DNA of 39,960 nt from Tessaracoccus bendigoensis DSM 12906 (lineage in GTDB: Bacteria; Actinomycetota; Actinomycetes; Propionibacteriales; Propionibacteriaceae). The stretch is from positions 1-39,960 of the forward strand of contig NZ_FQZG01000036.1 of assembly GCF_900141915.1 (NCBI RefSeq). Direction: 5' to 3'. Positions 15,986 through 39,756 of this stretch are shown piece by piece; position 1 is the first letter of the stretch; every line of letters begins with the position of its first letter. Under the pieces are notes generated by a model. It saw nothing but the letters and a program-made list of their open reading frames with translations. It made no database searches and had not been told where the DNA came from. The position numbers and the translations under genes were made by a program.

Positions 15986-18900
15986 CTAGGTGGGCTCGTT
16001 CCAGGTGTAGAACAGCGTCGGTTTGCCCGCCGCGCGACGGCTGTCGATGAGGTCCTGCGACACCTGGTCGAGGAACGTCAAGTTGAACGAGATGTACTTT
16101 GCGATGTCGGCCTCGGCGAGCGAGTTGGCCGCCAGGGCGATCTTGTCGTTCCACTCCGGGTTGGCCTGATCGATCACCGCGAACGCGGCGTTCATGCGGG
16201 AAAGGGTCTGCTCGTCGAACGCGAGGCTGGTGTCATCCCACCACCCCTTGTCCCTGAGGTGTGTCTCGAACGCGTCGAGGAACGCACCCCAGACCTGACG
16301 GTAGCGGGCGTCGCCCACCGTGTAGGTCTCCCAGGTGCCCTGGCCGGTGCGGGTGTCGATGAAGTAGAACCGGTCCTGGCTCTGGAACTGGAGCATCGAG
16401 AACGCGTGGATCCGGTCGCCGATACCCGCGGCCCGGGCGTCGGTCACGAGCCGGTCGAAGACGTCGAAGTCGAACGTGAAGTTCGAGCCGTCGTAGAGCC
16501 ATTCCACCGTCGAGCGGTAGTGGCTGTAGGTCTGCGGCCGAATGGTGCCGCCCATGTTGACCAGCCAGGGGTCTTCCGTGATGGCGAGGTTCAGCACGTC
16601 CTGCCCCGCCTCGGCGAGATCCTCCCAATAGGGCACGAGCGCCTGGAAGTGGGCCTCGCTCCAGGGTGTCAGGTCGAGTTGGTCGGCCACCGCGTCGGGG
16701 TGTTGCCACAGGTCGAGCACGAACGGCCGCTCGGGGACATCGCGGTACTCGACGTCTGGCACCTCGACCACGATCGGCCAGGTGCCGAGCTGGCCGGCAG
16801 TCGTCTTGACGGCGACAGTGCCGGTGTATTCGCCCGGCGCGGTGCCTGCGGGGACGCGCACGGTCAGCCAGATCGGCTGGTTCTGGCCGCGAGCCACGTC
16901 CACCGAAGCCACGTCCTCGAGCGGGTCGGCGACCACGCCACCGTTGTTCTCGTCCGGGATGTACTTCGCGTACCGGACGTCGACGGCGTCAGTGAGCGTG
17001 CCACCTGGGCCGGTCAGCGCGCCGACCTCGGCCGCCAGACCGGTCAGGTCGGTCCCTGCGGTGACCCCCAGCTGGGCGCTGGCACGGCTGTTGGCCGGGA
17101 TGGTCAGCCCGAGGTCGCCGCTGGCCGCCGAACCGATGCCGCCGACCTGCGGCACCCGCACGAGCGAGGACGAGTCGAACGAGCCGGTGGGGACCCAGAC
17201 GCTGGCTTCAACATCCTCGGGGATCTCGCGGAGATCGACGGGGAACAGGGTCGCCGATGCGGTGACGGTGCTGCCTGCCGCGGTGCCGGTGGCGGTGTAG
17301 GTATCGCGCCACTCTCCGACGACGATGAGGTCGGCCGCCGTGACGGTGTGGCGCGGGATGGCCGGGGTGTTCCGGCAGACGAAACTGGCGCCGGGCGCCA
17401 GCGACGAAGAGGTGCAGTTTGCCGTGCCTTGGCCTGCCGCGACGCTGATGCCGGTGACGGCGACGTTGCCGGTGTTGTACACCTCAACCCAAGGCTGGAT
17501 GCCGTCGTCCAGGAGTCCTGGCTCACCGGCGGAATAGATGGCGTCGAGGACGGGACGGACCTCGAGCGAGGGCACCGGAGCGACTGGGCCGAGCACGTGC
17601 ACGGAGTGCAGGGTGCCGTTGAAGATCCAGGGGTCGGTGCGGCTGGTGAAGATGCTGCCCACCGACATAGCGTCGAGTCCCTGGACGGACGACATCAGCG
17701 CGCTGGTGGTGGTGGTGGCGATCTCGGCACCGTTGAGGTAGAGCTTGGCGCCCGCGGCGTTGACGACCGCGGCGAGCACGTAGCGCTGGCCGTTGGTCAC
17801 AGTGACGTTTGGCGCGAGCCGGATGACGTGGCCCGTCCCGCCCGTGCGGACCTCGAAGTACGGCTTTCCGCCGTTGATGCTGAGGACGACCCCCTTGTCC
17901 GTGGCGCCCTTGACGGTCGCCGCGTAGAGCGTGCCCACCGTGGCGTTGGCGTTCTGCGTGAAGTCGGCGACGATGACGCCCTCGGCAAGCGAGGCGACGC
18001 TCGGCAGGTCGGAGGTGACGTCGATGCGGGAACTGGTGGCCGGGTTCAGGACGGCTCCGGTGGTCCACTCCCACTTCTTGTCGCCGCCGATGACCATCAG
18101 CGTGCCGGAGCCGGATGCGGCCCCATCGCCCTGGGTGTAGGTGACCTTCAGCTCATGCCCGCGGGTGTCGAATGATGCGCCAGGGGTGACGGTGAGGTTT
18201 ACGGTGGCGATGGCGCCGGCCGCGATCGCGGGCACGGCGGTCGGGGTCGCGTCCCAACGCGAGTCGGCAGCCACGTCCAACGATCCGGCGGGCAGCGCCG
18301 CACCGGACTGGTTGGTGACCGTGACGGGCACCGTGGTGGCGATCCCGGCCACAGGCTGGGCGGTCGGGGCCCCGACGGCGACCTTGGCGCAGACGCCTTC
18401 GAGCCAGCCGAGGTCGAACTTGGTGAACGAGATGTGGCGGTAGCCCTCGCGTTCGTAGAACAGGCCGAAACCACCGGCGCCGAGTTCGCCCGACGCGTCG
18501 GGCAGGGGGGTCAGCGTCGAATAGCCGGTGGCGCCGCTCTGCACGACCTTCGAGACGGGCCAGGTGGTGCCGGAGTCGCACGACATGCGCACGGTGAGGT
18601 TGCGCCGCACGTTGACGTTGTTGGCGTTGGAGAACAGCAGGATCTGCGCCTTCGGGTCGCCGGGGGCGGCGTCGGGGTAGGCGCGGATGATCGACCCGTT
18701 GTTGGCCGGGTCGGGCAACTGCGTGTCCTGCGTGAAGGCGGTGTAGGTGGCGCCACCGTCGGTGGAACGCGCGATCCGACGGTAGGGGGCGGCGCGCGAG
18801 TTGAGCAGCACGTCACCGTTTGCGAGTTCGACGGTCTTGTTCTCATCGGCACCCGGGCCGACGGGGGCGGAGGCCTTCCAGGTGGCGCCGTGGTCGTCGG

Positions 18901-19609
18901 AGTAGACGGAGACGGCGTAGTTCCCACCGGAGATCCGGATGGTGTACTGCTGAATCAGGCGACCCTTGTGGGCGCCCTGACGCAGCTGGATGCCTTCGCC
19001 GGAGGCGGCGAACATGCCTGCCCAGGTGGTCTGGCCCGCCTTGATCTGGTCGGTGATGCGGTGGTGCGTCCAGGTCGCGCCGTTGTCGTCGGAGACGGAG
19101 TAGTCGGCGTGCAGCACGTTGGGGTCGTCGGGGTCGGAGCCGGTGGAGCCACCCGCGAAGCCCTGGTTGATGGAGGCCGCATAGAACAGGAAGATCTTGT
19201 CGGTCTCACGGTCGACGACGACCGACGGGTCGCCGTAGCCGTTGGGGGCGGGCGACTGACGCACGATCTGCTGGGGGCCCCAGGTGGTGCCGCCGTCGCT
19301 CGAGCGGCGCATCAGCATGGTGATGTTGCTCGGCAGGTCGTTCATCGAGGGACGGCCGTCGAAGAAGGCCAGGAGGTCGCCGTTGGGCGCGGTGGTCAGC
19401 GACGGGATGCGGTAGCGCAACCAGTCGCCCTCGCCACGGTTGGCCAGGTCGTTCAAGGTCAGGCCGTCGGCCAAGCCGTCCGCGGGGCTTGCGCTGGCTG
19501 TGGTTGCTGATGGGGGTGGGTCTGCAGTGGCTTGTGGCCCGGTGAGGGTCAAGGTTCCGGCCGCCAAGGCGACCGAGAGCCCAAGGGCCAGTGTTCTGCG
19601 CAGCGTCAT
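15986..19609 (-). CDS. Secreted sialidase (GH33) fused to a GH123-like domain, 5' portion
   Basis: 1,207 residues up to the TAG. A signal peptide (1-29, ending ATA) precedes a sialidase beta-propeller (about 50-400). The arginine motif YRIP is at 66-69. Five Asp boxes are seen: SSDGGTTW 103-110, SDDNGATW 173-180, SDDHGATW 237-244, STDGGATY 282-289 and SCDSGTTW 343-350. TGYSTL carries the probable nucleophile Tyr363. CARDB/NEW3-like and LamG-like beta domains follow, then a domain of unknown type. Last comes a DUF4091/GH123-type barrel with the Asp-Glu pair in AFDEQ (1132-1133), as in GH123 beta-N-acetylgalactosaminidases. Predicted to release sialic acid and then GalNAc from host glycans outside the cell. 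ATG with GGAGA 7 bases upstream. The barrel lacks its last strands because of the TAG. Confidence 0.85.
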   Translation of the reverse strand: MTLRRTLALGLSVALAAGTLTLTGPQATADPPPSATTASASPADGLADGLTLNDLANRGEGDWLRYRIPSLTTAPNGDLLAFFDGRPSMNDLPSNITMLMRRSSDGGTTWGPQQIVRQSPAPNGYGDPSVVVDRETDKIFLFYAASINQGFAGGSTGSDPDDPNVLHADYSVSDDNGATWTHHRITDQIKAGQTTWAGMFAASGEGIQLRQGAHKGRLIQQYTIRISGGNYAVSVYSDDHGATWKASAPVGPGADENKTVELANGDVLLNSRAAPYRRIARSTDGGATYTAFTQDTQLPDPANNGSIIRAYPDAAPGDPKAQILLFSNANNVNVRRNLTVRMSCDSGTTWPVSKVVQSGATGYSTLTPLPDASGELGAGGFGLFYEREGYRHISFTKFDLGWLEGVCAKVAVGAPTAQPVAGIATTVPVTVTNQSGAALPAGSLDVAADSRWDATPTAVPAIAAGAIATVNLTVTPGASFDTRGHELKVTYTQGDGAASGSGTLMVIGGDKKWEWTTGAVLNPATSSRIDVTSDLPSVASLAEGVIVADFTQNANATVGTLYAATVKGATDKGVVLSINGGKPYFEVRTGGTGHVIRLAPNVTVTNGQRYVLAAVVNAAGAKLYLNGAEIATTTTSALMSSVQGLDAMSVGSIFTSRTDPWIFNGTLHSVHVLGPVAPVPSLEVRPVLDAIYSAGEPGLLDDGIQPWVEVYNTGNVAVTGISVAAGQGTANCTSSSLAPGASFVCRNTPAIPRHTVTAADLIVVGEWRDTYTATGTAAGSTVTASATLFPVDLREIPEDVEASVWVPTGSFDSSSLVRVPQVGGIGSAASGDLGLTIPANSRASAQLGVTAGTDLTGLAAEVGALTGPGGTLTDAVDVRYAKYIPDENNGGVVADPLEDVASVDVARGQNQPIWLTVRVPAGTAPGEYTGTVAVKTTAGQLGTWPIVVEVPDVEYRDVPERPFVLDLWQHPDAVADQLDLTPWSEAHFQALVPYWEDLAEAGQDVLNLAITEDPWLVNMGGTIRPQTYSHYRSTVEWLYDGSNFTFDFDVFDRLVTDARAAGIGDRIHAFSMLQFQSQDRFYFIDTRTGQGTWETYTVGDARYRQVWGAFLDAFETHLRDKGWWDDTSLAFDEQTLSRMNAAFAVIDQANPEWNDKIALAANSLAEADIAKYISFNLTFLDQVSQDLIDSRRAAGKPTLFYTWNEPT

Positions 19610-27431: not shown

Positions 27432-27442
27432 CGTCTCACACA

Positions 27443-27527
27443 CAGGGGAGCGCCACCGGGCGCTGAGAGTGCGGAACAAGACCGCAGACCCTCAAACCTG
27501 ATCCGGTTAGCACCGGCGTAGGGAGTG
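27443..27527 (+). ncRNA. TPP riboswitch (thi-box)
   Basis: Conserved blocks appear in order: GGGGAGC, the CTGAGAGTGCGG turn, ACCCTC, ACCTGATCCGGTTAGC and GCGTAGGGAG. These form the five-part TPP aptamer. Downstream are a hairpin CTCGGC-TTGC-GCCGAG (27534-27549) and a short CTCC/GGAG pairing (27551-27554 with 27560-27563) that would mask the AAGGAG of thiB. With no T-run, control of translation is more likely than of termination. Confidence 0.93.
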
Positions 27528-27568
27528 AGTCTCCTCGGCTTGCGCCGAGCCTCCGAAAAGGAGATGCC

Positions 27569-28612
27569 ATGCAAAGAATGATCGTCGCGGGCCTGACCGC
27601 CGTGGCCCTACTCGCCCTCAGCGCCTGCGGTGGCGCACCTTCGTCCGGGGAGGCCGGAGCGCCCTCCCCGACGCAGACGGACAAGCTCACCGTCGTCACC
27701 CACGACGCCTTCACCCTGCCCGACGAACTGAAGGCGAAGTTCGCTGACGAGACCGGCCTGGAGGTCACCTACGTAGCCCCAGGCGACACGGGCACCCTCG
27801 TCAACCAACTGGTCCTCACGAAGGACTCGCCACTGGGCGACGTCGTCTACGGCATCGACAACACGTTTGCTTCGAGGGCCGCCTCCGAGGGTGTTCTGGT
27901 CGACTACGAGTCGCCCCTTGCCGCGTCCACCCAGGAGTTCGCCGCACCCCAACTGACCCCGATCGACTTCGGTGATGTCTGCATCAACGCCGACACCGCC
28001 TGGTTCGAGGCTGCGGGTATCGAGATCCCATCGACCCTCGACGACCTGACCGACCCCGTCTACAAGGACCTGCTCGTCGTCACCAATCCCGCCTCCTCCG
28101 CACCCGGCCTGTCGTTCCTGCTCGCCACGATCGGGGCGAAGGGCGAGGACGGCTATCTGGACTACTGGCAGGCCTTGTCAGACAACGGCACCAAGGTCGC
28201 CTCGGGCTGGACCGAGGCCTATTACACCGACTTCTCGGGTGCCGACGGAAAGGGCCCCCGCCCCCTGGTGCTCAGCTACTCGACGTCGCCCGCGTACACG
28301 GTCGACGGCGACACCTCGACCACCCAGGCGCTGCTCGGCACGTGCTTCCGCGCCGTCGAGTACGCGGGTGTGCTCCACGGCACAACCAACGAGGCCGGAG
28401 CGCAGAAGTTCATCGACTTCATGCTCAGCCCGGAGGTGCAGGCTGCGATCCCTGAGAACCTCTACATGTACCCAGTCATCGCCGACACGCCGTTGCCGAA
28501 GGACTGGGCACGCTTCGCGCCCCTGTCAGAGGTCCCCTTCGAGGTGCCCGCCGAGCAGATCGGCCAGCACCGCGACCAGTGGATCCGGGACTGGACCGAG
28601 GCCATCGGTTGA
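27569..28612 (+). CDS. thiB: Thiamine ABC transporter substrate-binding lipoprotein
   Basis: 347 residues. A lipoprotein signal ends LSAC (Cys20), followed by a Gly/Ser/Ala-rich tether and a ThiB-type binding fold with LTVVTHDAF, VYGIDNTFASRA, VCINAD and LLVVTNPASSAPG. It collects thiamine outside the membrane. ATG with AAGGAG 5 bases upstream, under the TPP riboswitch, which confirms the substrate class. thiP follows with a TTGA overlap. Confidence 0.92.
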   Translation: MQRMIVAGLTAVALLALSACGGAPSSGEAGAPSPTQTDKLTVVTHDAFTLPDELKAKFADETGLEVTYVAPGDTGTLVNQLVLTKDSPLGDVVYGIDNTFASRAASEGVLVDYESPLAASTQEFAAPQLTPIDFGDVCINADTAWFEAAGIEIPSTLDDLTDPVYKDLLVVTNPASSAPGLSFLLATIGAKGEDGYLDYWQALSDNGTKVASGWTEAYYTDFSGADGKGPRPLVLSYSTSPAYTVDGDTSTTQALLGTCFRAVEYAGVLHGTTNEAGAQKFIDFMLSPEVQAAIPENLYMYPVIADTPLPKDWARFAPLSEVPFEVPAEQIGQHRDQWIRDWTEAIG

Positions 28613-30255
28613 ACCCGTGGGGCTGGCGGGTCGCCTGGCTCCTGGCCGCCGCCGTCCCGCTCGCCTTCCTCACGCTGTTCTTCGCCTGGCCCGCCGCGTC
28701 CCTGGTCCTGCGCGGCTTCCACGACGGCGATGGCTGGACACTGAGCGGATTCCAGACGGTGTTCGCGTCGCCCCGCACGTGGCGGGCGGTCGGGTTCACG
28801 CTCACCAGCGCGACGGCGTCGACCCTGCTCTGCCTCCTGCTGGGGCTGCCCGGCGCCTACCTGCTCTACAGGACGAGGTTCGCCGGGCAGGGGGCGCTGC
28901 GCGCGCTGGTGAGCGTCCCGTTCGTGCTGCCGACGGTCGTGGTCGGCGTCGCGTTCGGTGCCCTGCTGCGGGAGGACGGGCTGCTCGGCTGGGCCGGCCT
29001 CTCCGGCACCCCCGCGGCGATACTTGGCGCGATGGTGTTCTTCAACTATTCGGTGGTGGTGCGCACCGTCGGCTCCATGTGGGCCAGGCTCGACCCCAGG
29101 CTGGAGCAGGCCGCCGCGACCCTCGGGGCGTCACCGCTCCGGGTTCTGCTGGGTGTCACCCTCCCTGCCCTGGCACCTGCCATCGTTTCGGCCGCCTCGC
29201 TGGTGTTCCTCTTCAGCGCCTCGTCGTACGGCATCGTCATGGTGCTCGGTCAAGGTAGCTACTCGAGCATCGAAACCGAGATCTGGTTCCTGACCACGCA
29301 ACTGCTGGACCTCAGGTCCGCCGCGGCACTGTCGATCACCCAACTGGTGATCGTGACGCTGGCCCTTTGGCTCAGCAGCGCAGCGCAGACCAGGACGACG
29401 GCGTCGCTCAGGCTGCAACCAGATTCGGCGACCTCCCGACGCTTCGACCGGCGCCGGGACTGGGCACCGATGGCGCTGACCCTCGGGGTCACCGTCGTGC
29501 TGCTGGTGGCACCGCTCGGGAACCTGCTCTGGCTCTCGCTGCACCGCGGCGACCGGTTAACGCTCGCCAACTACTCCCAACTCGCCTCCGACGGGGCCAT
29601 GGGCACGACGTTGTGGGCCGCGGGTCGCACATCTCTCGTCACGGCGCTGGCGGCGACCGGGATGGCGGTCGCGCTTGGGATGCTGGTGTCGCTGGTCGCA
29701 TCGCGTAGGCCGCGGTCGACGTCTGCGCGGCGGGGGCTCGCGGCCCTTGAGTCCCTGTTCCTGCTCCCACTGGGGGTTTCGGCCGTTACCGTCGGGTTCG
29801 GCTACCTGATCACGCTCAACCGCCCCCCGCTCGACCTCCGCTCCAGCCTGGTGCTGATCCCGATCGCGCAGGCGGTGGTGGCGCTGCCGTTGATCGTACG
29901 GATCCTGCTTCCGGTGCTACGTGCGATCGACCCGCGGCAACTGGAGGCGGCCTCAACGCTGGGCTCGGGCCCCCTCCGGGTGCTGCTGCGGATAGAGCTG
30001 CCACACCTGTGGCGCGGCCTCGGCCTGGCAACCGGGTTCGCCTTCGCGACCTCGCTCGGAGAGTTCGGGGCGACGTCGTTCCTGGCGCGCCCGGACAATC
30101 CGACGCTGCCGGTGCTCATCTTCCGCCTGTTCGGTCGCCCAGGGTCGGAGACCTACGGCATGGCGCTGGCGGCTTCGGTGCTGCTGGCAGGATTGGCGGG
30201 GATCACGATGGCGGCCGCCGAACGGCTCCGCCCGCAGGAGGTGACGACTTGGTAG
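28609..30255 (+). CDS. thiP: Thiamine ABC transporter permease
   Basis: A 548-residue membrane protein with two permease halves of about six helices each. The ATPase-contact loops are EQAAATLGASPLRVLLGVTL and LEAASTLGSGPLRVLLRIEL. The start is a TTG overlapping the thiB stop as TTGA; a longer GTG start at 28579 is less likely because it would run 34 bases into thiB. The last 75 bases (30181-30255) recur at 34110-34184 just before thiQ. thiQ, which normally follows directly, now lies 3.9 kb away beyond genes on the opposite strand. The final codons read PQEVTTW. Confidence 0.92.
   Translation: MNPWGWRVAWLLAAAVPLAFLTLFFAWPAASLVLRGFHDGDGWTLSGFQTVFASPRTWRAVGFTLTSATASTLLCLLLGLPGAYLLYRTRFAGQGALRALVSVPFVLPTVVVGVAFGALLREDGLLGWAGLSGTPAAILGAMVFFNYSVVVRTVGSMWARLDPRLEQAAATLGASPLRVLLGVTLPALAPAIVSAASLVFLFSASSYGIVMVLGQGSYSSIETEIWFLTTQLLDLRSAAALSITQLVIVTLALWLSSAAQTRTTASLRLQPDSATSRRFDRRRDWAPMALTLGVTVVLLVAPLGNLLWLSLHRGDRLTLANYSQLASDGAMGTTLWAAGRTSLVTALAATGMAVALGMLVSLVASRRPRSTSARRGLAALESLFLLPLGVSAVTVGFGYLITLNRPPLDLRSSLVLIPIAQAVVALPLIVRILLPVLRAIDPRQLEAASTLGSGPLRVLLRIELPHLWRGLGLATGFAFATSLGEFGATSFLARPDNPTLPVLIFRLFGRPGSETYGMALAASVLLAGLAGITMAAAERLRPQEVTTW
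30181..30255 (+). repeat. Left copy of the 75-bp direct repeat (thiP 3' end)
   Basis: Matches 34110-34184 at 69 of 75 positions. Both copies start CTGCTGGCAGG and end GGTAG. Five of the six differences are synonymous in the thiP frame; the sixth changes Thr to Ala. No similarity extends beyond either edge. Confidence 0.93.
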
Positions 30256-30979
30256 GTTCCCCCGTCCCGCGGCTACGCCGAAGCCGGTATTGGACGCTTC
30301 GGCCCTGCGCCGGTGGCTCCGCCCGGCAGAGGTGCTCCGCCACCAGCGCGGCCACCCCCTCGTCATCGAGGTTTCCGTACCAGATGTCATCGGGCTGGAC
30401 GGTGACGAGTGGGGCCTGGTTGCAGGGGAACTGGCAGCCGGTCGCAGTGAGTAGCACCTCGTCATCGCCGAGACCGCGTTCGGCAAGGAGGCGTTGCAGG
30501 GCGGTGGTCACCTCTCCGGCGCCGCGTGCAAGGCAGCGCGGGCCTTGGCACACGAGCACCTGATGGCGGTACCCAGGCACCTCGTCCCAGGACGGTGAGG
30601 TCAGCCCCCCATCACGGCCACAGACCCGTTGCCACGCAGCCGCGGCAAGGAAGTCGTCCAGGTCCTGGAAGGGGGCTTTCAACTCCGAACGGGCCATGCG
30701 AAGGTCCATCTCAGCACCCCACGTGCGAAGCCAGTACCCGGCGACCCGGAAGGCCCAGGAGCGCCCCGTCGCAGACCGCCCGGCGTGGACCGGGACGACT
30801 TTGACTTCCGGTTCCCCGTCGCCCGCGAGACGGTTGAGTTCCTTGACCAGCGACGGCTCGCCGCGTTGAAGGAAACACAGCGTCGTCGATTCCCGGGCTT
30901 GGACCAGCGATTGGAGCCGCACCAATTCGTCGGCGGTGGCGGCCCCGAGCAGGACGAGCAGGGTGGGCACCGTTGTCAC
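30203..30979 (-). CDS. [2Fe-2S] ferredoxin-domain protein of the cobalamin module
   Basis: 258 residues. The C-terminal half has a thioredoxin-like [2Fe-2S] pattern: CQGPRCLARG, then TATGCQFPCNQAP and VTVQPDDIWYGNL, giving four or more Cys ligands. The N-terminal half (VLLGAATADELVRL to GRSATGRSWAFRV) is not recognised. Genes of this kind often follow cobalamin or siderophore ABC transporters, so a role in reducing or handling the imported corrinoid is inferred. The GTG overlaps the ATPase stop as GTGA. The last 17 residues before the stop are encoded by the antisense of the thiP repeat, so the natural C-terminus was probably replaced at the junction. It overlaps thiP by 53 bases. Confidence 0.8.
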   Translation of the reverse strand: MTTVPTLLVLLGAATADELVRLQSLVQARESTTLCFLQRGEPSLVKELNRLAGDGEPEVKVVPVHAGRSATGRSWAFRVAGYWLRTWGAEMDLRMARSELKAPFQDLDDFLAAAAWQRVCGRDGGLTSPSWDEVPGYRHQVLVCQGPRCLARGAGEVTTALQRLLAERGLGDDEVLLTATGCQFPCNQAPLVTVQPDDIWYGNLDDEGVAALVAEHLCRAEPPAQGRSVQYRLRRSRGTGEPTKSSPPAGGAVRRPPS

Positions 30980-31758
30980 CGCTGCCTGCCTTCGCTTACG
31001 CCGCTCCAGACAAGGTGCCTGCGCGGCAGGCGAGGGTGGTCGATTACATCGGCGTCCACACCGTAGAGGTTGTCCATCAGAGAGGCTGTGATGACCTCCG
31101 AAGGTGCCCCGCGAACCGCAATCCTCCCACCGTCCAGGACGATGACCTTGTCACAGAATCCGAGCGCGAGCTCAAGATCATGCAGGGCGGCCACCGACGT
31201 GATTCCCAGCTTGCTGACCCGCTGCAGGAAGTCGATCTGGTGCCCCGGATCGAGGTGGTTGGTCGGCTCGTCAAGCAGCAGGACCTCGGGTTCCTGGGCG
31301 AGCGCGCGCGCCAACTGCACCCGCTGACGCTCGCCGCCGGAGAGGCTGTGCCACGCCCGGTGCAGCAGGTGTTCGACGTTGGCGAAGGCCGCTGCGGCCG
31401 CCAACGCCTCGGCCCCCTCACCAGCCCTCGACGGCCAGCGCCCGCGGTACGGGATCCGGCCGAGTTCCACGACCTGACGAGCGGTCAGGTCGAGCCTGGT
31501 GGCGGACTGCTGCTCCACCAATGCGACGGCGCGGGCCCGCTCGCGCCCGGTAAACGATGCAAGGTCGCGGCCATCGAGCAGCACCCGGCCACCCTGAGGC
31601 CGCAGGACTCTGGCGATCAGCCGCAACAGCGTCGACTTGCCGCAGCCGTTCGGGCCGATCAGACCGACGAACCCGCCATCGGCGAGGTCGGCGCTCACGC
31701 CGTCGAGCACCTGGTGGGAGCCGTAGGAGAAGCAGACGTCTTCGATCTGCAGCCTCAT
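30976..31758 (-). CDS. btuD: Cobalamin ABC transporter ATP-binding protein
   Basis: 260 residues of the FecE/BtuD type. Walker A is GPNGCGKST (35-43), the Q-loop lies near VEQQSATR, the signature is LSGGERQRVQLARAL, Walker B is LLLDEPTNHLD, and the switch His is in VAALHDLELAL. It energises the BtuC-like permease. The ATG at 31758 overlaps the permease stop as ATGA; the frame extends upstream but without any protein logic. Cobalamin as substrate is inferred from the riboswitch, since iron chelate transporters look the same. Confidence 0.85.
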   Translation of the reverse strand: MRLQIEDVCFSYGSHQVLDGVSADLADGGFVGLIGPNGCGKSTLLRLIARVLRPQGGRVLLDGRDLASFTGRERARAVALVEQQSATRLDLTARQVVELGRIPYRGRWPSRAGEGAEALAAAAAFANVEHLLHRAWHSLSGGERQRVQLARALAQEPEVLLLDEPTNHLDPGHQIDFLQRVSKLGITSVAALHDLELALGFCDKVIVLDGGRIAVRGAPSEVITASLMDNLYGVDADVIDHPRLPRRHLVWSGVSEGRQR

Positions 31759-32828
31759 GCGTCGCTCCTCGCCCTTCGCAGGAGCCACACGAAGAAGGGC
31801 GACCCGATGATGGCTGTGACGACGCCGACCGGGATCTCCTGGCCGGGGGCGAGGGAGCGTGCCGCGGTGTCGGACCAAACCATCAGGATCGCGCCGGTAA
31901 CCAGGCTGAGTGGCAACAACCTGGCGTGGACCGGCCCCGACACGAATCGCACGATGTGCGGCACGATCAGACCCACGAAACCGATCGCCCCCACCACCGA
32001 CACCAGGCAGGCGGTGAGCAGCGCGGTCACCACCATCAGCGCCCACCGGACGCCGGCGACCGAGATCCCAAGCGACGTTGCGGTCGCTTCACCGAAGCTC
32101 ATGGCGTCCAGGTCGCGCGCGAAGAACAGGGCGACCACGAGGCCGAGCAGCGCGGCCGCGATCAGGAACCCAGTCGATTCCCACCTGACGCCGGCGAACG
32201 ACCCGAGCGTCCAGGCGAGCACCCTCCGCGCCGCTTGTTGGTCCCCGTTCATGATCACCATGAGCGAGGTGAAGGCGCTGCAGATCTGGCCGATGGCGAC
32301 GCCCGCCAGCACCACCCGGGTCGGTGGCAGTGTCCCTGCCCGCCCGACGGCGAGGAGCAGCACAAGAGCCAGGGAGCCGAGCGCGCCGACGAAGGCCCCG
32401 AAGGTGAGTGCGACGGTGCCGCCCAGTGTGCCCATGCCGACCCCCAGCGCGATCACCGCCACAGCACCCACGGTCGCGCCGCCCGAGATGCCGAGCAGAT
32501 AGGGCTCAGCCAGGTCGTTGCGGGTCAGCGATTGCAGCACTGCACCGCACACCGCCAGCCCCGCACCGACGGCGGCGGCCGCCAGCACCCGCGGCAGCCG
32601 CAGGTCCCAGATGATCTGATCCTGGAGCGGCGTGACAGGGAAGTCCCCCAGCCACATGCGGCGACCCACGACCTGCAGCACTACGTCCGCCGGGACGCTG
32701 ACCGATCCTATGCCCAGGGTGACGGCCAGGCTGACAAGCAGGACGGCAAGCAGCGCGATCAACGCAGCCACGAAACCGCCCCACCTCGAATGTGCGGGGA
32801 CCGGGGTGCTCACTCCCCCCGGATTCAC
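31755..32828 (-). CDS. btuC: Cobalamin ABC transporter permease
   Basis: 357 residues of the FecCD/BtuC family with about ten transmembrane helices. LLGISGGATVGAV and the ATPase-contact region GAIGFVGLIVPHIVR are clear. The start is a GTG overlapping the binding-protein stop as GTGA; a second GTG at 32813 is possible. It forms the membrane channel for corrinoid uptake with the neighbours on both sides. Confidence 0.86.
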   Translation of the reverse strand: MNPGGVSTPVPAHSRWGGFVAALIALLAVLLVSLAVTLGIGSVSVPADVVLQVVGRRMWLGDFPVTPLQDQIIWDLRLPRVLAAAAVGAGLAVCGAVLQSLTRNDLAEPYLLGISGGATVGAVAVIALGVGMGTLGGTVALTFGAFVGALGSLALVLLLAVGRAGTLPPTRVVLAGVAIGQICSAFTSLMVIMNGDQQAARRVLAWTLGSFAGVRWESTGFLIAAALLGLVVALFFARDLDAMSFGEATATSLGISVAGVRWALMVVTALLTACLVSVVGAIGFVGLIVPHIVRFVSGPVHARLLPLSLVTGAILMVWSDTAARSLAPGQEIPVGVVTAIIGSPFFVWLLRRARSDA

Positions 32829-33850
32829 GACAGATTCAGCGCCGTCAGCTGCTCGGCCAGGTGGCTTGCGCCGTCGACGAGCCGGATGCCAGGGGTGCTT
32901 TCGGAGAAGGGGATGGTGACGAAGTTCCCGGCCTTGACCGCGGCCAGATCCTTTAGGACCGGATCGTTTTCGAGCTGTTCGCGCTTGGCCGCGGCAGTCG
33001 ACCAGGAGGCGTCGGCCAGCACGATCACGTCGGGATCGGAGGCCAGCACCTGCTCCCAGCTGACATCGGCCCAGCTCCCTTCGATGTCGGCGAAGACGTT
33101 GGTGGCGCCCACCGCGCTGATCACGAGTTGCGGGCCACCGCTGCCGACCCCCGCGAAGGCCGCCTTGTCCCCGGAATCGAACCAGAAGATCCTGACGTCC
33201 TTGCCCGCAGCCTGGTCGTTGAGCTGGCCGAGGGTGGCCTGCTGCTCTTCGCGGACCTTTGCGGCGCGCTCCGGAACCCCGAAGGCGGTGGCCACCGAAT
33301 CGATCTCGTCCCACACCGACTCGAAGGAACTCGGGGCGCGCAACGCCTTATCGGTGCAGCCGAACGGCGAAAGCAAGGAGGGGATCCCGGCCGTGGCCAG
33401 TTCCTCCTGGGTCCCGGCGACCTCAGCGGTGAAGGCGCTGCCGAATGCGGCGTAGAGGAAGTCGGGTTCCGCGGCAAGGAGGGTCTCCCTGTCCGGGTAT
33501 TTCTCCGAGATCACCGGCACCGATTCGTAAGCGGCCTGCCACTTCTCCGGGACGGCATCGTCAAGGTAGGCGGTGCCAGCGAGTTGACCTTCGACGCCGA
33601 GCGCCAGGGCAACCTCTGTGGCGGCCTGGTTCAGCGTGACGGCCCTGCTCGGCGCCGCGGGCAGCGTCGCGGTGAAACCGCAGCTGGTTACGTCGACGGG
33701 AAAGGCCGCAGCCTCCGGTGACGTGGCCCCGATGGACGCCGAAGCGGTCGGGGCGGGGCTGGAAGCTGGCGCGCCGGCACATCCGGAGACGGCGACCAGC
33801 AGGGAAACTGAAAGAGCGGACAGCACAAGGCCGACGCGGGGTGCGCGCAT
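32825..33850 (-). CDS. btuF: Cobalamin ABC transporter substrate-binding lipoprotein
   Basis: 341 residues. A lipoprotein signal ends VSGC (Cys24), followed by a Ser/Ala/Pro tether and a TroA/BtuF-type binding fold with AVTLNQAATEVALALG, EPDFLYAAF and WEQVLASDPDVIVL. The ATG at 33850 is chosen because GGAG lies 6 bases upstream; an ATG at 33862 would place that motif inside the gene. It follows a cobalamin riboswitch, which sets the probable ligand. Confidence 0.86.
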   Translation of the reverse strand: MRAPRVGLVLSALSVSLLVAVSGCAGAPASSPAPTASASIGATSPEAAAFPVDVTSCGFTATLPAAPSRAVTLNQAATEVALALGVEGQLAGTAYLDDAVPEKWQAAYESVPVISEKYPDRETLLAAEPDFLYAAFGSAFTAEVAGTQEELATAGIPSLLSPFGCTDKALRAPSSFESVWDEIDSVATAFGVPERAAKVREEQQATLGQLNDQAAGKDVRIFWFDSGDKAAFAGVGSGGPQLVISAVGATNVFADIEGSWADVSWEQVLASDPDVIVLADASWSTAAAKREQLENDPVLKDLAAVKAGNFVTIPFSESTPGIRLVDGASHLAEQLTALNLS

Positions 33851-33882
33851 GGGTATCTCCAAACCCTCGAAGGACGAAACAC

Positions 33883-34060
33883 ACTCCGGTCAGGTTTCCT
33901 GACTCACGCTTCGGCACGGCTGTTCTGGCCTTCCCGGACTGTCCGTCCAGTGGCCCGATCCTGACGATCGTCGGAACACCCGCTCAGCGCTCACAGTGGG
34001 GAGGACCGCTCCAGATTCACGCTGGATTCCCATTCACCGGAATACGGGCAACCTATCACG
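33883..34060 (-). ncRNA. Cobalamin riboswitch
   Basis: On the minus strand the order is GGTGAATGGGAATCC, then a GGTCCTCCCCACTGT core, a variable arm, and the B12-box-like GCGTGAGTCAGGAAACCTGAC. These fit the cobalamin aptamer. Its leader ends about 30 bases before btuF. A possible -10, TAGGTT, lies at the 5' end near 34048-34053. Control by masking of the btuF ribosome binding site is likely but is not shown by the sequence. Confidence 0.88.
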
Positions 34061-34109
34061 GGGTTGAGCGCGCGGCGCGACCGCCCCGGAACATGCGTCT
34101 TGCACTTCC

Positions 34110-34184
34110 CTGCTGGCAGGATTGGCGGGAATCACGATGGCGGCGGCCGAACGGCTCCGTCCCCAGGAGGTGGCGACGTGGTAG
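34110..34184 (+). repeat. Right copy of the 75-bp direct repeat (thiP 3' remnant before thiQ)
   Basis: Encodes LLAGLAGITMAAAERLRPQE and VATW plus a stop, the intact end of a ThiP protein with no ThiP body in front. It carries AGGAGG and the GTG start of thiQ, which overlaps the remnant stop. It therefore keeps the normal thiP-thiQ junction. The left copy at 30181-30255 has TTG in place of this GTG. Confidence 0.93.
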
Positions 34185-35152
34185 CAGGCCTTGAGGTGCG
34201 CGGGGTGGAGGTGCGCTACGGCGCAGCGGTCGCCGTCGAGGATGTGAGCCTGGTGGTCGAACCCGGCACTGTGGTCGGGCTGCTGGGCCCATCCGGCTCC
34301 GGCAAGTCGACGCTGCTGCGGGCAATCGCCGGGCTGGAGCCGTTGACGGCCGGTTCGATCCTGTGGGAGGGCGACGACCTGGCCGGTGTGAAGGTGTTCA
34401 AACGCAACTTCGGCCTGGTGTTCCAGGACGCCCAACTCTTCCCCACCATGACGGTGGGCCGCAACATCGCCTACGGCCTCGGCAAACTCCCGCGTCCGGC
34501 CCAGCAGACACGGGTGACAGAGATGCTGGAACTGGTCGGGTTACCAGGATTTCAGGACCGCAGGGTAACCGAGCTTTCCGGCGGGCAGGCGCAGCGGGTG
34601 GCACTGGCCAGGTCGCTGGCCCCGACGCCCAGGGCCCTGCTGCTCGACGAGCCCCTTTCGGCCCTGGACACGGGCCTGCGGCGGCGACTGGCCGAGGACC
34701 TGGCAAGGATTCTGCGGGAGAGCCGGACCACCGCCGTCTACGTGACCCACGACCAGCAGGAGGCCTACACCGTCGCCGACCGGGTCGCGGTGCTCACCGA
34801 AGGACACCTCCTGCAGCTGGCCGATCCCGAGACCCTGCGGCACGCCCCTGCCACCCGCGAGGTCGCCGCATTCCTCGGGGCGCGCGCCTTCGTCACGGAG
34901 GCAGTGGCGCGATCGCTCGGCTGGGACGGGTCGCTCGCCACCGGAGAGATCCTCGCGGTGCTGCCGGGTTCGCTGGTGCTCGCCGACGACGGCGTGGAGG
35001 TGGAGGTACTTGACCAGGGCTACACCGTCGACGACGTCGAGATCGGGGTGCGGCTCCCCGACGGGCAGCGGGCGGTGGTGTCGTCGTCCGACCGGGTCGA
35101 CGCCAGCTCAGTGCGCGTGAGGCTGACCGGCGGGGCTCCCATCCCCGCCTGA
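34178..35152 (+). CDS. thiQ: Thiamine ABC transporter ATP-binding protein
   Basis: 324 residues. Walker A is GPSGSGKST (37-45), the Q-loop is FGLVFQDAQLFPT, the signature is LSGGQAQRVALARSL, Walker B is LLLDEPLSALD and the switch His is in VYVTHDQQEA. A TOBE-like domain occupies about 240-324. The GTG at 34178 has AGGAGG 7 bases upstream and overlaps the thiP remnant stop. It should energise ThiBP, whose genes lie 3.9 kb upstream. No TPP riboswitch or clear promoter is visible for it between 34061 and 34177, so its control is probably changed. Confidence 0.88.
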   Translation: MVAGLEVRGVEVRYGAAVAVEDVSLVVEPGTVVGLLGPSGSGKSTLLRAIAGLEPLTAGSILWEGDDLAGVKVFKRNFGLVFQDAQLFPTMTVGRNIAYGLGKLPRPAQQTRVTEMLELVGLPGFQDRRVTELSGGQAQRVALARSLAPTPRALLLDEPLSALDTGLRRRLAEDLARILRESRTTAVYVTHDQQEAYTVADRVAVLTEGHLLQLADPETLRHAPATREVAAFLGARAFVTEAVARSLGWDGSLATGEILAVLPGSLVLADDGVEVEVLDQGYTVDDVEIGVRLPDGQRAVVSSSDRVDASSVRVRLTGGAPIPA

Positions 35153-35230
35153 TCGCCTGATCCCGGGGCCGGAACACTCAGTTCCACAGAGCACTTCCGC
35201 GCCCGTCCCCATTGTGTCGGTCCTACCACC

Positions 35231-35236
35231 TAGTGT
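35231..35236 (+). promoter_or_regulatory. -10 element pointing to an ATG at 35243
   Basis: TAGTGT, 6 bases, ATG. This is the leaderless spacing seen for other genes here. The ATG at 35243 is out of frame with the GH110-like gene by one base: its own frame gives MVIGVPESEAFSPSW and a stop. Confidence 0.55.
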
Positions 35237-35283
35237 GACCCCATGGTCATTGGAGTCCCCGAATCCGAGGCATTTTCGCCCTC

Positions 35284-38200
35284 TTGGTAGCCGTCCTCAT
35301 GGTCTTCACGACGGTGGCGGCGAGCCCCGCCTCAGCCGATCCACCGTCGGACGCGGTAGGAACCGTCGTGGACGTCACCGACTACGGCGCCGACCCGACA
35401 GGCGCCGCCGATTCGACGCCCGGGGTGGTGGCCGCCATCGCCCACGCCAAGTCGCTCGACGCCCCGACGACGATCTGGTTCCCCGAAGGCACCTACCATT
35501 TCTGGCCCGAGCAGGCGCCCCAGCGGGAGCTCTACACGTCAAACACCGTCGGCACGCTCCAGCAGTTCAAGATGAAGCGACTGCCGATCCTTATCGAGGA
35601 CATGGAAGACGTGGTCGTCGACGGCGGCGGCTCCGCGTTCCTGTTCCACGGCATCCAGACGGCGTTCGCCTCGATCCGCTCCACGAACGTGACTTTCCAG
35701 AACTTCTCCACCGATTTCGTCGGCCCGAGGGTGGTCGAGACCACGGTCATCGAGACGGGCACGGCCAACGGCCGCGCCTTCCGCACGGTCGCCGTCACCC
35801 CGACGATCGACTACTCGGTCCAGGGCACCACCATCACCTGGCGAGGCGAGACCAGCCCCGTCACCGGCCAGCCGTACTGGACGGGGCAGAACTCGCTGCC
35901 CGGGCGGCAGCACTACGGCCAGCTGTACAACACCGCCACTGGCCACGCCGAACGCTTCAACGCGGGTGGCCCGCTGTTCTCCGGCGTCACCGGCATCGAG
36001 GACCTGGGCGATCACCGGATCCGGTTCACCTACTCCACGGCGACGGCGCCGACCGACCTGGGCGTCATGTACCAGTTCCGAGACATTGAGCGCGACACCC
36101 CCGGCGCCTTCATCTGGGAGAGCAGGAACACCACAATCCAGAACCTGGACGTCCACTACCTGCAGAACTTCGGCATCCTGTCGCAGATGACCGACACGGT
36201 CACCGTCGACTCGCTGCGGTTCCACGCCGACCCGGGCGGGTGGCGCAGCACCACCAACTTCGCCGATCTGCTCCACTTCTCAGGGGTCAAGGGCAAGGTC
36301 AGCATCACCAACTCGACGTTCCACAACCCGCAGGACGACCCGATCAACATCCACGGCACCTATCTCCGTGTCGTCGGCCGCCCCGCTCCGAACCAGGTGA
36401 CCCTGCGCTACATGCATGACGAGACCGCCGGGTTCCAGCAGTACTTCGTGGGCGACCAGGTGGAGTTCGTGAACGACCGCACCATGCTGCCGATCGACCT
36501 GGGCCCGGCGGTGGTCACCGCCGTCACCGGCCCGTCCGGCAACACCGACGAGTCGCTGCGCACCACCACCGTCACCTTCGACCGTGAGATCCCCGCAAAC
36601 GTCGCCTCCGGCGCCGGTTTCGTCGCCGAGAACGTCACCTACACCCCTGAGGTTCACATCGCGGGAAACAGCTTCTCAGACGCGCCGACGCGCGGCATCC
36701 TCGTCACGACCCGCAAGCCGGTCCTGATCGAGAACAACCGTTTCGACCAGATGCACATGGCCTCGATCCTGATCTCCGACGATGCCTACCAGTGGTACGA
36801 GTCGGGTCGCGCCACCGACGTCACGATCCGGAACAACACGTTCAGCCGCACGTCGACCGACCAGCCCGTCATCTACTTCGACCCCACCAACCGCGACACC
36901 GTGCCGGGCCGGACGGTGCACAGCAACGTCCTGATCGAGGGCAATGTGTTCAACGTCGCCGGCTCTCAGTTGATCGCCGGACGGTCGGTCGCCGACCTCA
37001 CGTTCCGCGACAACACCGTCCAGCGGGAGCACTCGCAGGCCGCCGTGAACCTCGACGTCGCCCGCACCACCCTGTCGGCCGGTGAGGTCACCACCGCCAG
37101 CGGCACGGGCACCGGCGAGGCCTATTCGCGTCCGCTGTTCCAACTCGACGGCTCGCTGAACATCAACCTCACCGGAAACCGCTACGACAACGGGCTGAAC
37201 CTCAGGTTCGACGGCTCGAACACCTCGGCCTCCGAGGTCCATGCCGCCGACGACGGGGTGCTGGTCGGAGCCGACAACAACCTCGATCCCCGCGGCCGGA
37301 TCGGATACCTGAGCACCAACCCGACGGTAGCAACCGTGGATGCCGACGGCACCATCCGGGCGCGCTCCGCGGGCAACACCGACATCATCGCGTTCGCCGC
37401 GTCCCAGGTCGGCGCGCACGAGTCGGCCCCGGTGCAACTCACCGTCACCGGCACCGCGCCGGGGGGCGATGCGGCGCCCATCGCCATCACCTCATCCGAG
37501 GGCACACAACTGGCGCCGGGGCAGGGCACCCAGTTGTCCGCCGACGCTGACGACGTCACCTGGCAGGTCCGCTCGTTGGCGGGCAACAGCGCAACCATCT
37601 CGTCCACCGGTGCCCTCACGGCCGGGTCCGCTGGCGTGTTCGAGGTCACCGCGACCGGCGTCGACGGCGCCCGCGGAACCCTCCTGCTGTCGGTCCACGC
37701 CCCCCTCGCTGACTCGCTGGGTGAGCGGTGGGCAGTTTCCAACCCCGATCCGGCCGCCCGCCTCGAACTCACCGCCGAAGGGCATCTTCTGATGACCCCC
37801 GCCGGTGCCGGCTCGATGTGGGGGTCGGACAACCGGGCTGGAAACATCCTCACCAACACCGAGCAGAGCCTGGCGGTCGGCGAGTCTGCCACCGTCAAGA
37901 TGGCTGGCCGCACGCAGGGTGGCTGGGAGGAGGCCGGTCTTGGGCTGATCGTGAACCAGGACAACTACCTGACCATCCAGCGCAAGCACAACAACACCCC
38001 GGCCACCCTGAACGTCGTGACGGAGGCGGCGGGCTCGGCCAACGAGTCCCGATCGATCCCGAGCCCGACGCAGGACCCGATCTGGCTGCGGCTCACCCGC
38101 ACCGGGGAGTCCACCTTTCAGGGCAGCTACTCGACAGACGGCGTCACGTTCAGCGACCTCGGGTCGCCGGTCACCAACGCCACCATCGGATCGGCGAAGG

Positions 38201-39756
38201 TCGGCTTCGTCGTCGCCACCAAGACCACAGGCTCGATCAACCACGAGTTCGTCTTCTCCGACCTCCTGGTCGCCGACCGGGCAGTCGCCTTCGCCGACGC
38301 GAACGCCGCGCCGGTCGCCTCCGAGGTGACGGTCGCCCAGAGTGGCGCCGAACTGTTGGCCGCGTGGCACTTCACCGATCCCGACGGGGATGCCCAGGGA
38401 GATTCGGTGGTGCGCTGGCTACGGGACGGTGAACCCGTCGGCACCGGGGCGACGCTGACGGTCACCGGGGATCTGGTTGGTTCCCAGGTCAGCGCGCATG
38501 TGGTCGCCCGCGACTCCCGCGGAGGGTTCTCCGCACCGGTCTCGAGCGCCCCGGTTACGGTGGCATCCCCGACAGACGCCGCGGGGGATGCGACCCTCGC
38601 AAGGGTCGACGTGCGAAACGCTGTGGCCGACGACGCGCTCCTGACTGCTTCGCGTTCAGCCGATGCCATCTTCCTGCTCCCCGTGCCCACGGCTGCGGGA
38701 GCGACGGTCAAGGTTTCAACGTCCGGGGCCGCGATCGAGGCCGACAGCCTGGGTTGGTACCGGCTCCCTCTCGGCGAGGAGTCGACGGGGATCACGGTCG
38801 CGGTCACCTCACCCGACGGCACCGCTGAGACCAGCGCTGCCTACACCGCCGTCCGCGATGGGGACAACCGGGCTCGGCTGGCTGGCGTCAACGTCGTCTC
38901 CGGGCCGAGTTGGGCCGGTTTCTCGCCGGACGCGCACTCCTACCTGCAGGTTGTCGGGTCGGCCGTGAACCAGTCGTGCCTGGCGTTCACCCCCGAGTCC
39001 CCGACAGATGCGGTGTACGTGACTCTCAACGGCCGCGACCTGGCTGCGAGGAGTGGCCGGTTCGCCTACGCCATCATCCCGGGGCTCAACACCCTCGAGG
39101 TCCGGACCCTGGCCCCCGACGGCCACACCTCGGCGCTGTACCGCTTCCAGGCCATCTCCCTCGGCCCGGACGTCCAGTTGAGCGATGACCAGGTCACCTG
39201 TGGAGGGCCGACACCAACACCCACTACCACACCGACCCCAACACCAACCCCCACACCCACACCGACCCCAACACCCACACCAACCGCGACGCCGACGCCG
39301 ACGGCTACTCCGACTACGCCTGCGGGGTTTGTCCCGACGGCTCCGTATTCGTTGCCCGGGGCGCACACCATCAATGGGCGTCAGTGGTTCACCACCTGTG
39401 AGAAGTATTCGCAGACTGAGCGTTGCCGCACTGAGATCTGGGCGAGCATCGTGGTCAGGGATAAGAGCGGGAATTTCTCGATCAGGCGGGGTTGGGCGTT
39501 CAACAACATGACGTACCTGCCTTACATGACCAGGGCTCAGTGGGCCAATAACCCGCTGGGGCACACGGGGTCGTGGACGGCGACTGATGGTCGTAGGTGG
39601 CGTACCGAGTGTGATACGGCGCTGAGTGGTCCGAATGCGTGTCGTAGCTTTGCCTGGGCCACGGTCTATGAGGCTAAGGCGAAGGCTGGTGGCGGTTACA
39701 CGTTCAGCCAGACCAATAAGTGGGTCTTCAACAACATCGTGATGTTCAAGGGGTGA
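35284..39756 (+). CDS. Secreted beta-helix glycosidase, GH110-like (alpha-1,3-galactosidase)
   Basis: 1,490 residues from a TTG. A hydrophobic segment ends SPASA, a signal peptidase site. A right-handed beta-helix follows (about 30-660), with the Asp pair in DDPINIHGTYL (351-352), a stretch typical of GH110 enzymes that remove alpha-1,3-galactose from blood group B glycans. Next come a Big_2-like Ig domain (about 675-730), further Ig-like parts, a DUF1349/LamG-like domain (about 815-1000), beta-sandwich repeats, a (PT)n linker and a 141-residue C-terminal domain shared with the sialidase protein. The TTG start lacks the basic n-region; adding one C at 35257-35260 would join it to the ATG at 35243 and give a full signal peptide. 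The exact substrate is inferred. Confidence 0.75.
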   Translation: MVAVLMVFTTVAASPASADPPSDAVGTVVDVTDYGADPTGAADSTPGVVAAIAHAKSLDAPTTIWFPEGTYHFWPEQAPQRELYTSNTVGTLQQFKMKRLPILIEDMEDVVVDGGGSAFLFHGIQTAFASIRSTNVTFQNFSTDFVGPRVVETTVIETGTANGRAFRTVAVTPTIDYSVQGTTITWRGETSPVTGQPYWTGQNSLPGRQHYGQLYNTATGHAERFNAGGPLFSGVTGIEDLGDHRIRFTYSTATAPTDLGVMYQFRDIERDTPGAFIWESRNTTIQNLDVHYLQNFGILSQMTDTVTVDSLRFHADPGGWRSTTNFADLLHFSGVKGKVSITNSTFHNPQDDPINIHGTYLRVVGRPAPNQVTLRYMHDETAGFQQYFVGDQVEFVNDRTMLPIDLGPAVVTAVTGPSGNTDESLRTTTVTFDREIPANVASGAGFVAENVTYTPEVHIAGNSFSDAPTRGILVTTRKPVLIENNRFDQMHMASILISDDAYQWYESGRATDVTIRNNTFSRTSTDQPVIYFDPTNRDTVPGRTVHSNVLIEGNVFNVAGSQLIAGRSVADLTFRDNTVQREHSQAAVNLDVARTTLSAGEVTTASGTGTGEAYSRPLFQLDGSLNINLTGNRYDNGLNLRFDGSNTSASEVHAADDGVLVGADNNLDPRGRIGYLSTNPTVATVDADGTIRARSAGNTDIIAFAASQVGAHESAPVQLTVTGTAPGGDAAPIAITSSEGTQLAPGQGTQLSADADDVTWQVRSLAGNSATISSTGALTAGSAGVFEVTATGVDGARGTLLLSVHAPLADSLGERWAVSNPDPAARLELTAEGHLLMTPAGAGSMWGSDNRAGNILTNTEQSLAVGESATVKMAGRTQGGWEEAGLGLIVNQDNYLTIQRKHNNTPATLNVVTEAAGSANESRSIPSPTQDPIWLRLTRTGESTFQGSYSTDGVTFSDLGSPVTNATIGSAKVGFVVATKTTGSINHEFVFSDLLVADRAVAFADANAAPVASEVTVAQSGAELLAAWHFTDPDGDAQGDSVVRWLRDGEPVGTGATLTVTGDLVGSQVSAHVVARDSRGGFSAPVSSAPVTVASPTDAAGDATLARVDVRNAVADDALLTASRSADAIFLLPVPTAAGATVKVSTSGAAIEADSLGWYRLPLGEESTGITVAVTSPDGTAETSAAYTAVRDGDNRARLAGVNVVSGPSWAGFSPDAHSYLQVVGSAVNQSCLAFTPESPTDAVYVTLNGRDLAARSGRFAYAIIPGLNTLEVRTLAPDGHTSALYRFQAISLGPDVQLSDDQVTCGGPTPTPTTTPTPTPTPTPTPTPTPTPTATPTPTATPTTPAGFVPTAPYSLPGAHTINGRQWFTTCEKYSQTERCRTEIWASIVVRDKSGNFSIRRGWAFNNMTYLPYMTRAQWANNPLGHTGSWTATDGRRWRTECDTALSGPNACRSFAWATVYEAKAKAGGGYTFSQTNKWVFNNIVMFKG

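Follow-up and report, generated by a model that had tools for sequence, protein, structure and literature searches.

A predicted cobalamin uptake module between thiP and thiQ of Tessaracoccus bendigoensis, flanked by a repeat of the thiP 3' end that begins beside a conserved embedded element

Some integrative elements sit at the 3' ends of genes without disrupting their target, and cis-mobilizable elements (CIMEs) lack integration genes yet retain attL and attR, as set out in PMC5704250. In the ssrA islands of Dehalococcoides (PMC3146451), metabolic cargo is bounded by a gene and by a further copy of that gene's 3' end; these islands have more than a dozen repeats and an integrase of the serine-recombinase type. 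A locus resembling both is found on a 39,960-nt contig of the Tessaracoccus bendigoensis DSM 12906 draft genome (158 contigs), called the window below. In it a btuF-btuC-btuD-ferredoxin module with a cobalamin riboswitch sits within a thiamine uptake operon, between thiP and thiQ, and a direct repeat of the thiP 3' end lies on both sides of this cargo while the target gene is intact. The locus differs from the ssrA islands in being a single case and in using a protein-coding gene. It differs from the CIMEs in that no recombinase or second example was found, in that the repeat is one that gene overlap would force, and in the ragged end of its ferredoxin gene.

Two other familiar systems bear on the locus. 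Like a BtuCDF-type B12 uptake operon, the module has a FecCD permease, an ATPase, a Peripla_BP_2 protein and an RF00174 leader; a [2Fe-2S] ferredoxin-like gene and the location in a thiamine operon set it apart. Permease, ATPase and binding protein belong to fitting families and stand under a cobalamin riboswitch; B12 transport itself is predicted, and B12 and thiamine are the probable substrates judging from riboswitches and protein families. The second system is the internal (intragenic) promoter of bacterial operons, which the locus recalls by a -10-like box within the upstream gene and near the downstream gene. Here, by contrast, the case is built from clade-wide synonymous conservation and from duplication of the segment. 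We consider it about an even bet (a probability of roughly 0.5) that the arrangement arose by a one-off, probably horizontal insertion, which survived since the duplicated piece carries the promoter-like box, the ribosome site and the start codon of thiQ. The features that bear most directly on this reading are the following.

28609..30255, + strand: thiP, thiamine permease (PF00528; 79% identity to the thiP of relative G019)
30166..30171, + strand: possible weak -35-like hexamer CTGGCG, from codon 519 onward and outside the repeat (Leu 519 is the slowest synonymous Leu column; putative promoter role)
30181..30255, + strand: left copy of the repeat, the final 24 codons and stop of thiP (direct-repeat listing)
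30184..30195, + strand: conserved embedded element CTGGCAGGATTG, with the -10-like hexamer CAGGAT at 30188-30193 (synonymous conservation, -10 matrix)
34110..34184, + strand: right copy of the repeat, fused to thiQ and holding the element together with a likely ribosome site and the start codon of thiQ (direct-repeat listing)
34113..34124, + strand: embedded element in the right copy (-10 matrix, 4.69 bits)
34178..35152, + strand: thiQ, thiamine transporter ATPase, GTG start, uninterrupted frame (PF00005)

The thiP and thiQ genes were compared in 64 relatives, made up of 8 loci from the genus and 56 of 58 further loci; two were dropped, L138 for its broken thiP and L139 for lacking the thiP end. 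thiQ directly adjoins thiP in all 64, the window genome being the sole occupied case seen, and in L138 (genome G008) the two parts likewise align side by side. Since the genes adjoin in every relative, the uninterrupted pair is, by this comparison of sequences, ancestral and the insertion derived. An arrangement common to all relatives, which the sequence-only reading of this DNA had named as evidence against an insertion, did not occur. The L138 gene itself, thiP of Tessaracoccus coleopterorum HDW20 (L138/G008:C1:2517047-2518662), is broken into several frames and keeps its tail and the element.

The two genes are closely packed. Counted from the first base of the stop codon of thiP, thiQ begins at -7 to 130 nt across the 64 relatives (positions estimated from alignments), and it begins ahead of that codon in 43. 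The commonest arrangement, a start at -4 (a 7-nt overlap counting the stop), occurs in 37 relatives and in the right copy here. A likely thiQ ribosome site, AGGAGGTG, lies within the last thiP codons. Because the thiQ start overlaps the thiP end and the likely ribosome site is inside thiP, any insertion keeping both genes would have to supply a second thiP tail, and the overlap alone would account for the restored frame. Frame restoration is therefore not in itself proof of site-specific integration, and the same holds for a repeated gene 3' end, a trace that overlapping genes impose as well.

The repeat measures 75 nt (30181-30255 and 34110-34184) with 69 of 75 positions identical, exactly as the sequence-only reading had it, and is the longest among the direct repeats listed for 28000-36000. 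A 91-nt query spanning the right copy matched the own genome, at E 0.001, in the two repeat places only. The longest exact word common to both copies is 20 nt, at the gene-inward end. Five of the six differences are synonymous, again as claimed earlier, and neutral change would give at least five of six with P = 0.011; at the sixth, repeat position 64, the left copy has Thr and the right one Ala. The thiP end at 30255, the thiQ start at 34178 and a cobalamin riboswitch between them were likewise borne out, by the open reading frames (ORFs) and by the RF00174 match.

What the first reading missed is a conserved element at the left edge of the repeat, which starts just 3 nt before it. Synonymous conservation in thiP peaks at the codons CTG GCA GGA/GTA TTG, with an observed/expected ratio of 1.79 and a z of 5.2 (codon-level test on 26 thiP genes). 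The codons concerned are rare ones: GCA stands in 23 of 26 genes vs 8% of Ala codons, and TTG in 23 of 26 vs 6% of Leu codons. Among 151 Leu columns across thiB, thiP and thiQ, the three slowest on the tree of thiP proteins described below are thiP codons 519, 525 and 528, and Ala 526 is the third slowest of 107 Ala columns. When 5-codon windows are ranked, the element comes third of 953; the two higher ones are both in thiB and have fewer expected changes (5.6 and 15.1 vs 28.9). The tests thus place constraint beyond the protein sequence at this site.

Within the Tessaracoccus/Arachnia clade, counting the window, 27 of 32 members have the pattern GGCANNMTTG, vs none of 33 outside it. All 27 element sequences read CTGGCANNMTTG, and 23 of them CTGGCAGKATTG. 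On a tree of 65 thiP proteins, from which the final 45 residues were left out, the element's distribution takes 4 changes vs 20.9 in shuffles and is readable as one gain and three losses. In G015 the element is displaced 9 nt towards thiQ, a shift more in keeping with a sequence signal than with an effect of codon position. Thirteen relatives have a 14-base form, CTGGCAGKATTGRC, at a single place each, which the coordinates put within thiP every time; the reversed control of this form had no match in 37 genomes. In the own genome the 14-base form occurs in three places, two at this locus and one elsewhere. A dispersed repeat was rejected, given the single place of the 14-base form in each of the 13 relatives and the mere three own-genome places of the 12-base pattern, the third of which lies within a seemingly unrelated coding gene (by eye). 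RNA structure was also rejected as the cause: a consensus fold of 25 of the 27 element sequences (without L011 and L103) contains 4 pairs, none changed on both sides.

We read the element as a candidate promoter-like (extended -10) box for thiQ. A -10 matrix was built from the last TANNNT upstream of the TPP (thiamine pyrophosphate) riboswitch in 26 loci plus the window, the tested genome being left out when scoring. In 14 of 27 cases the presumed boxes are TAGGCT or TAGGGT, with GG or TG next in most. Across the 27 genomes this matrix ranks the element at a median 0.14% (range 0.03-2.4%) among the 3,500 or so sense positions of thiBPQ, and the chance that random synonymous codons score as high is P 0.0015-0.0045. 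In 24 of 27, the final 120 nt of thiP have the element as their top -10-like site. Its right copy is the top plus-strand -10-like site among starts 34050-34169, the next scoring 0.86 bits. The CTGGCG hexamer lies 16 nt before the -10-like hexamer. As for loci devoid of the element, a -10 site before thiQ was unconvincing in the 16 tested (14 outside the clade, 2 inside), L126 alone giving P = 0.04.

Altogether, these data suggest the following course. A riboswitch-controlled btuF-btuC-btuD-ferredoxin module would have been acquired horizontally and entered once, at the overlapping thiP-thiQ junction, without a dedicated integrase. Only a tail-duplicating insertion would keep both thiP and thiQ, and this requirement would act as a survival filter. 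The duplicated 75 bp begins 3 nt before the clade-wide element resembling an extended -10 box, and thiQ, no longer on the transcript that the TPP riboswitch governs, would rely for expression on signals in the right copy. The insertion relative to the 64 relatives, the overlap and the synonymous conservation are observed; the horizontal origin, the promoter role, the survival filter and the way of joining are probable at best. At the left junction the ferredoxin gene reads into thiP antisense from residue ~242, having met no stop codon ahead of the junction. Many of its homologues terminate at about this place on their own stop codons, some extend further, and their C-termini vary. A gene lacking its own stop is as expected from an illegitimate joint.

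Several points weigh against this reading. The -10-like hexamer begins with C, not T; the -35-like hexamer is missing from the right copy; and the shift in G015 breaks the -35-like spacing. A simple sigma-70 scan of 30000-34400 gave no promoter. The matrix rests on TANNNT boxes that we picked ourselves and presume to be -10 regions, none of them mapped experimentally, and it gives the window's own thiB promoter just 1.29 bits. Scores are modest: in roughly one-third to one-half of the shuffles, a region's best site attains 4 bits, and only 2 of 27 genomes have the element as their highest-scoring thiBPQ site. The 14 loci outside the clade mentioned above count here too. The element is absent from 5 of the 32 clade members; the 27 genomes that have it share one origin and hence are not independent tests; the coincidence of the repeat edge with it may be chance. 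A horizontal origin of the module is likely rather than observed, and no near donor turned up among 293 genomes of the order. The element may instead be a site for a regulator, a signal for RNA processing or a rare-codon pause.

The kind of event proposed is ordinary, an operon insertion with a clear empty site and a single instance; less ordinary is a clade-wide synonymous element marking the inner edge of the repeat. Literature searches on Tessaracoccus cobalamin and thiamine, thiQ and thiP promoters, operon insertion and intragenic promoters, judged by titles, yielded no title concerning this locus. The case illustrates a way to split an operon where two genes overlap without losing either. 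The thiP element is a candidate second control of thiQ, the thiamine transporter ATPase, one that would act independently of the riboswitch.

A variant of the insertion reading names the joining mode: linear DNA from a close relative already carrying the thiP-module arrangement recombined within thiP on the left and formed an illegitimate joint on the right, so that the left tail would be the donor's and the right tail the resident's. The left-copy states at positions 64 and 69 are unlike those of nearly all relatives, and G019 matches the right copy better than the left (67 vs 64 of 75), both as this variant would have it. The left-copy states themselves look derived. Conversely, the variant requires a donor with that arrangement, shown by none of the 64 relatives; similarity along thiP runs without a clear break (77-85% to G008, with a peak just before the repeat); and the two copies are about equally near G008 (66 and 67 of 75). 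A foreign flank was rejected for want of a clear break in segment identities to G008 (77-85%) and G019 (75-78%), and both flanks are about equally close to these two nearest relatives. We regard this variant as unlikely. The same comparisons bear on the earlier suggestion that the copies came from two lineages. The excess of synonymous changes speaks for it to a small extent; against it, none of the relatives' tails compared is as near to either copy as the copies are to each other (best 67 of 75, in G019 and G008), and the flanks are about equally near the two nearest relatives.

Quite unlikely, in our view, is a CIME-like remnant, with the repeats as attL and attR of a site-specific element that has since decayed. 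Its integrase, later lost or acting in trans, would have taken the 3' end of thiP for its attB, and a thiP tail brought by the element would have restored the gene. The geometry fits, with the 20-nt exact block at the gene-inward end followed by mostly synonymous divergence up to the stop. Elements that spare their target at gene 3' ends, and CIMEs that keep attL and attR after losing integration genes, offer precedents (PMC5704250). The profile PF00589 matches the own genome in 11 places, 9 of them over the cut-off and all on other contigs (serine recombinases were looked for in the scanned window proteins only). No recombinase was found among the 28 window proteins scanned, the frame at 35284-39756 and frames under 110 aa lying outside the scan. 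This lowers the case for CIME membership and does not exclude it, since a decayed element may lack a recombinase of its own. The other 38 genus genomes, 14 of them with a detectable tail, yielded no second full thiP-tail copy, and tails too diverged would escape this search. Matches to the left copy occur in 17 of 39 genus genomes, in 15 (own included) at the thiP tail; G026 and G006 have only short matches away from it. Two full-length tail copies occur in the window genome only, G018 having an additional partial 33-nt match (E 1e-4). The ferredoxin gene joined to thiP without its own stop also speaks against an attachment site, and the 75-bp repeat is equally expected from the gene overlap, which explains the tail duplication without an integrase. 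The sequence-only reading had compared the locus to islands that insert at gene 3' ends, while seeing no integrase: the latter stands for this contig, and the former is not supported as an integrative island, given the overlap and the missing second tail copy. A search of IMG/VR for the element-plus-tail pattern gave 0 matches, counting against this remnant as well, and a viral origin was rejected on that result. A plasmid origin was also rejected: 1225 records match part of a 4.2-kb query, none covering 80%.

Improbable, by our estimate, is duplication of the tail in place along with the insertion, the copies diverging later. Their mutual closeness, greater than to any of the relatives' tails compared, is what this would produce. 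Against it, five of six changes are synonymous though the right copy no longer codes, which neutral change would give with P = 0.011; that argument is weakened if the right copy is constrained as a thiQ signal or if the changes fell on the coding left copy. A speculative notion, to which we attach little credence, is that the 12-base thiP element serves both as a host signal for thiQ and as the core attachment site for recombinase-less vitamin cassettes moved in trans. Were it true, the 75-bp repeat would be a portable unit of gene end, promoter and start, and cargo could enter an overlapping gene pair with both genes unbroken. An assembly artefact is very improbable, even in a draft of 158 contigs assessed from the assembled sequence, because the shared exact word is at most 20 nt and both copies lie within one contig with unlike flanks, and upstream disA and thiB keep the relatives' order while the G+C of the insert resembles that of the flanks.

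The remaining parts of the locus are these.

27434..27541, + strand: TPP riboswitch upstream of thiB (Rfam RF00059, 69.3 bits)
27569..28612, + strand: thiB, thiamine-binding protein, predicted substrate (SBP_bac Pfam matches; TPP riboswitch upstream)
30203..30979, - strand: [2Fe-2S] thioredoxin-like ferredoxin gene (PF01257; homologue C-termini)
30976..31758, - strand: btuD-type ATPase (PF00005; gene order shared with other genomes)
31755..32831, - strand: btuC-type FecCD permease (PF01032)
32825..33850, - strand: btuF-type Peripla_BP_2 binding protein, ATG start at 33850 assumed (PF01497)
33871..34056, - strand: cobalamin riboswitch (RF00174, 74.4 bits)
34047..34059, - strand: probable btuF promoter -10 region GTGATAGGTTGCC, at the 5' end of the riboswitch match (-10 matrix, 7.3 bits)

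The four genes on the opposite strand, all called btu-type by the sequence-only reading, are by Pfam three btu-type genes and one ferredoxin gene; their strand was given correctly. The probable thiP start is the TTG at 28609, overlapping the thiB stop (a by-eye reading), where the ORF list has 28579. Among the sites examined around 34040-34151, 34047-34059 is the top-scoring minus-strand site of the -10 matrix.

The gene order of the module also occurs in G002, G006, G017 and G040 (in G006 btuF is split across two contigs), with BtuF identities of 50-58%. At E 1e-30 the ferredoxin is found in 43 of the 293 genomes of the order, own included. Its nine best other matches (43-49%) are all in another family (f3) and the tenth, at 41%, is in G021, a member of the genus, where matches range over 39-42%. 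The own genome has four cobalamin riboswitches over the cut-off, and a second BtuF-like match at E 8e-4 only. The ferredoxins L189 and L190, of G021 in the genus and of G165 in another family, are one residue apart in the aligned C-terminal stretch, a likeness suggesting recent transfer.

Elsewhere in the window, a 1490-aa frame with a Thr-Pro repeat stretch lies downstream of thiQ (35284-39756, +). A GH123 catalytic domain is split over the adjacent minus-strand frames 14246-15952 and 15986-19609, profile positions 1-232 ending the upstream protein and positions 249-323 beginning the downstream one; this large glycosidase gene looks interrupted or frameshifted.

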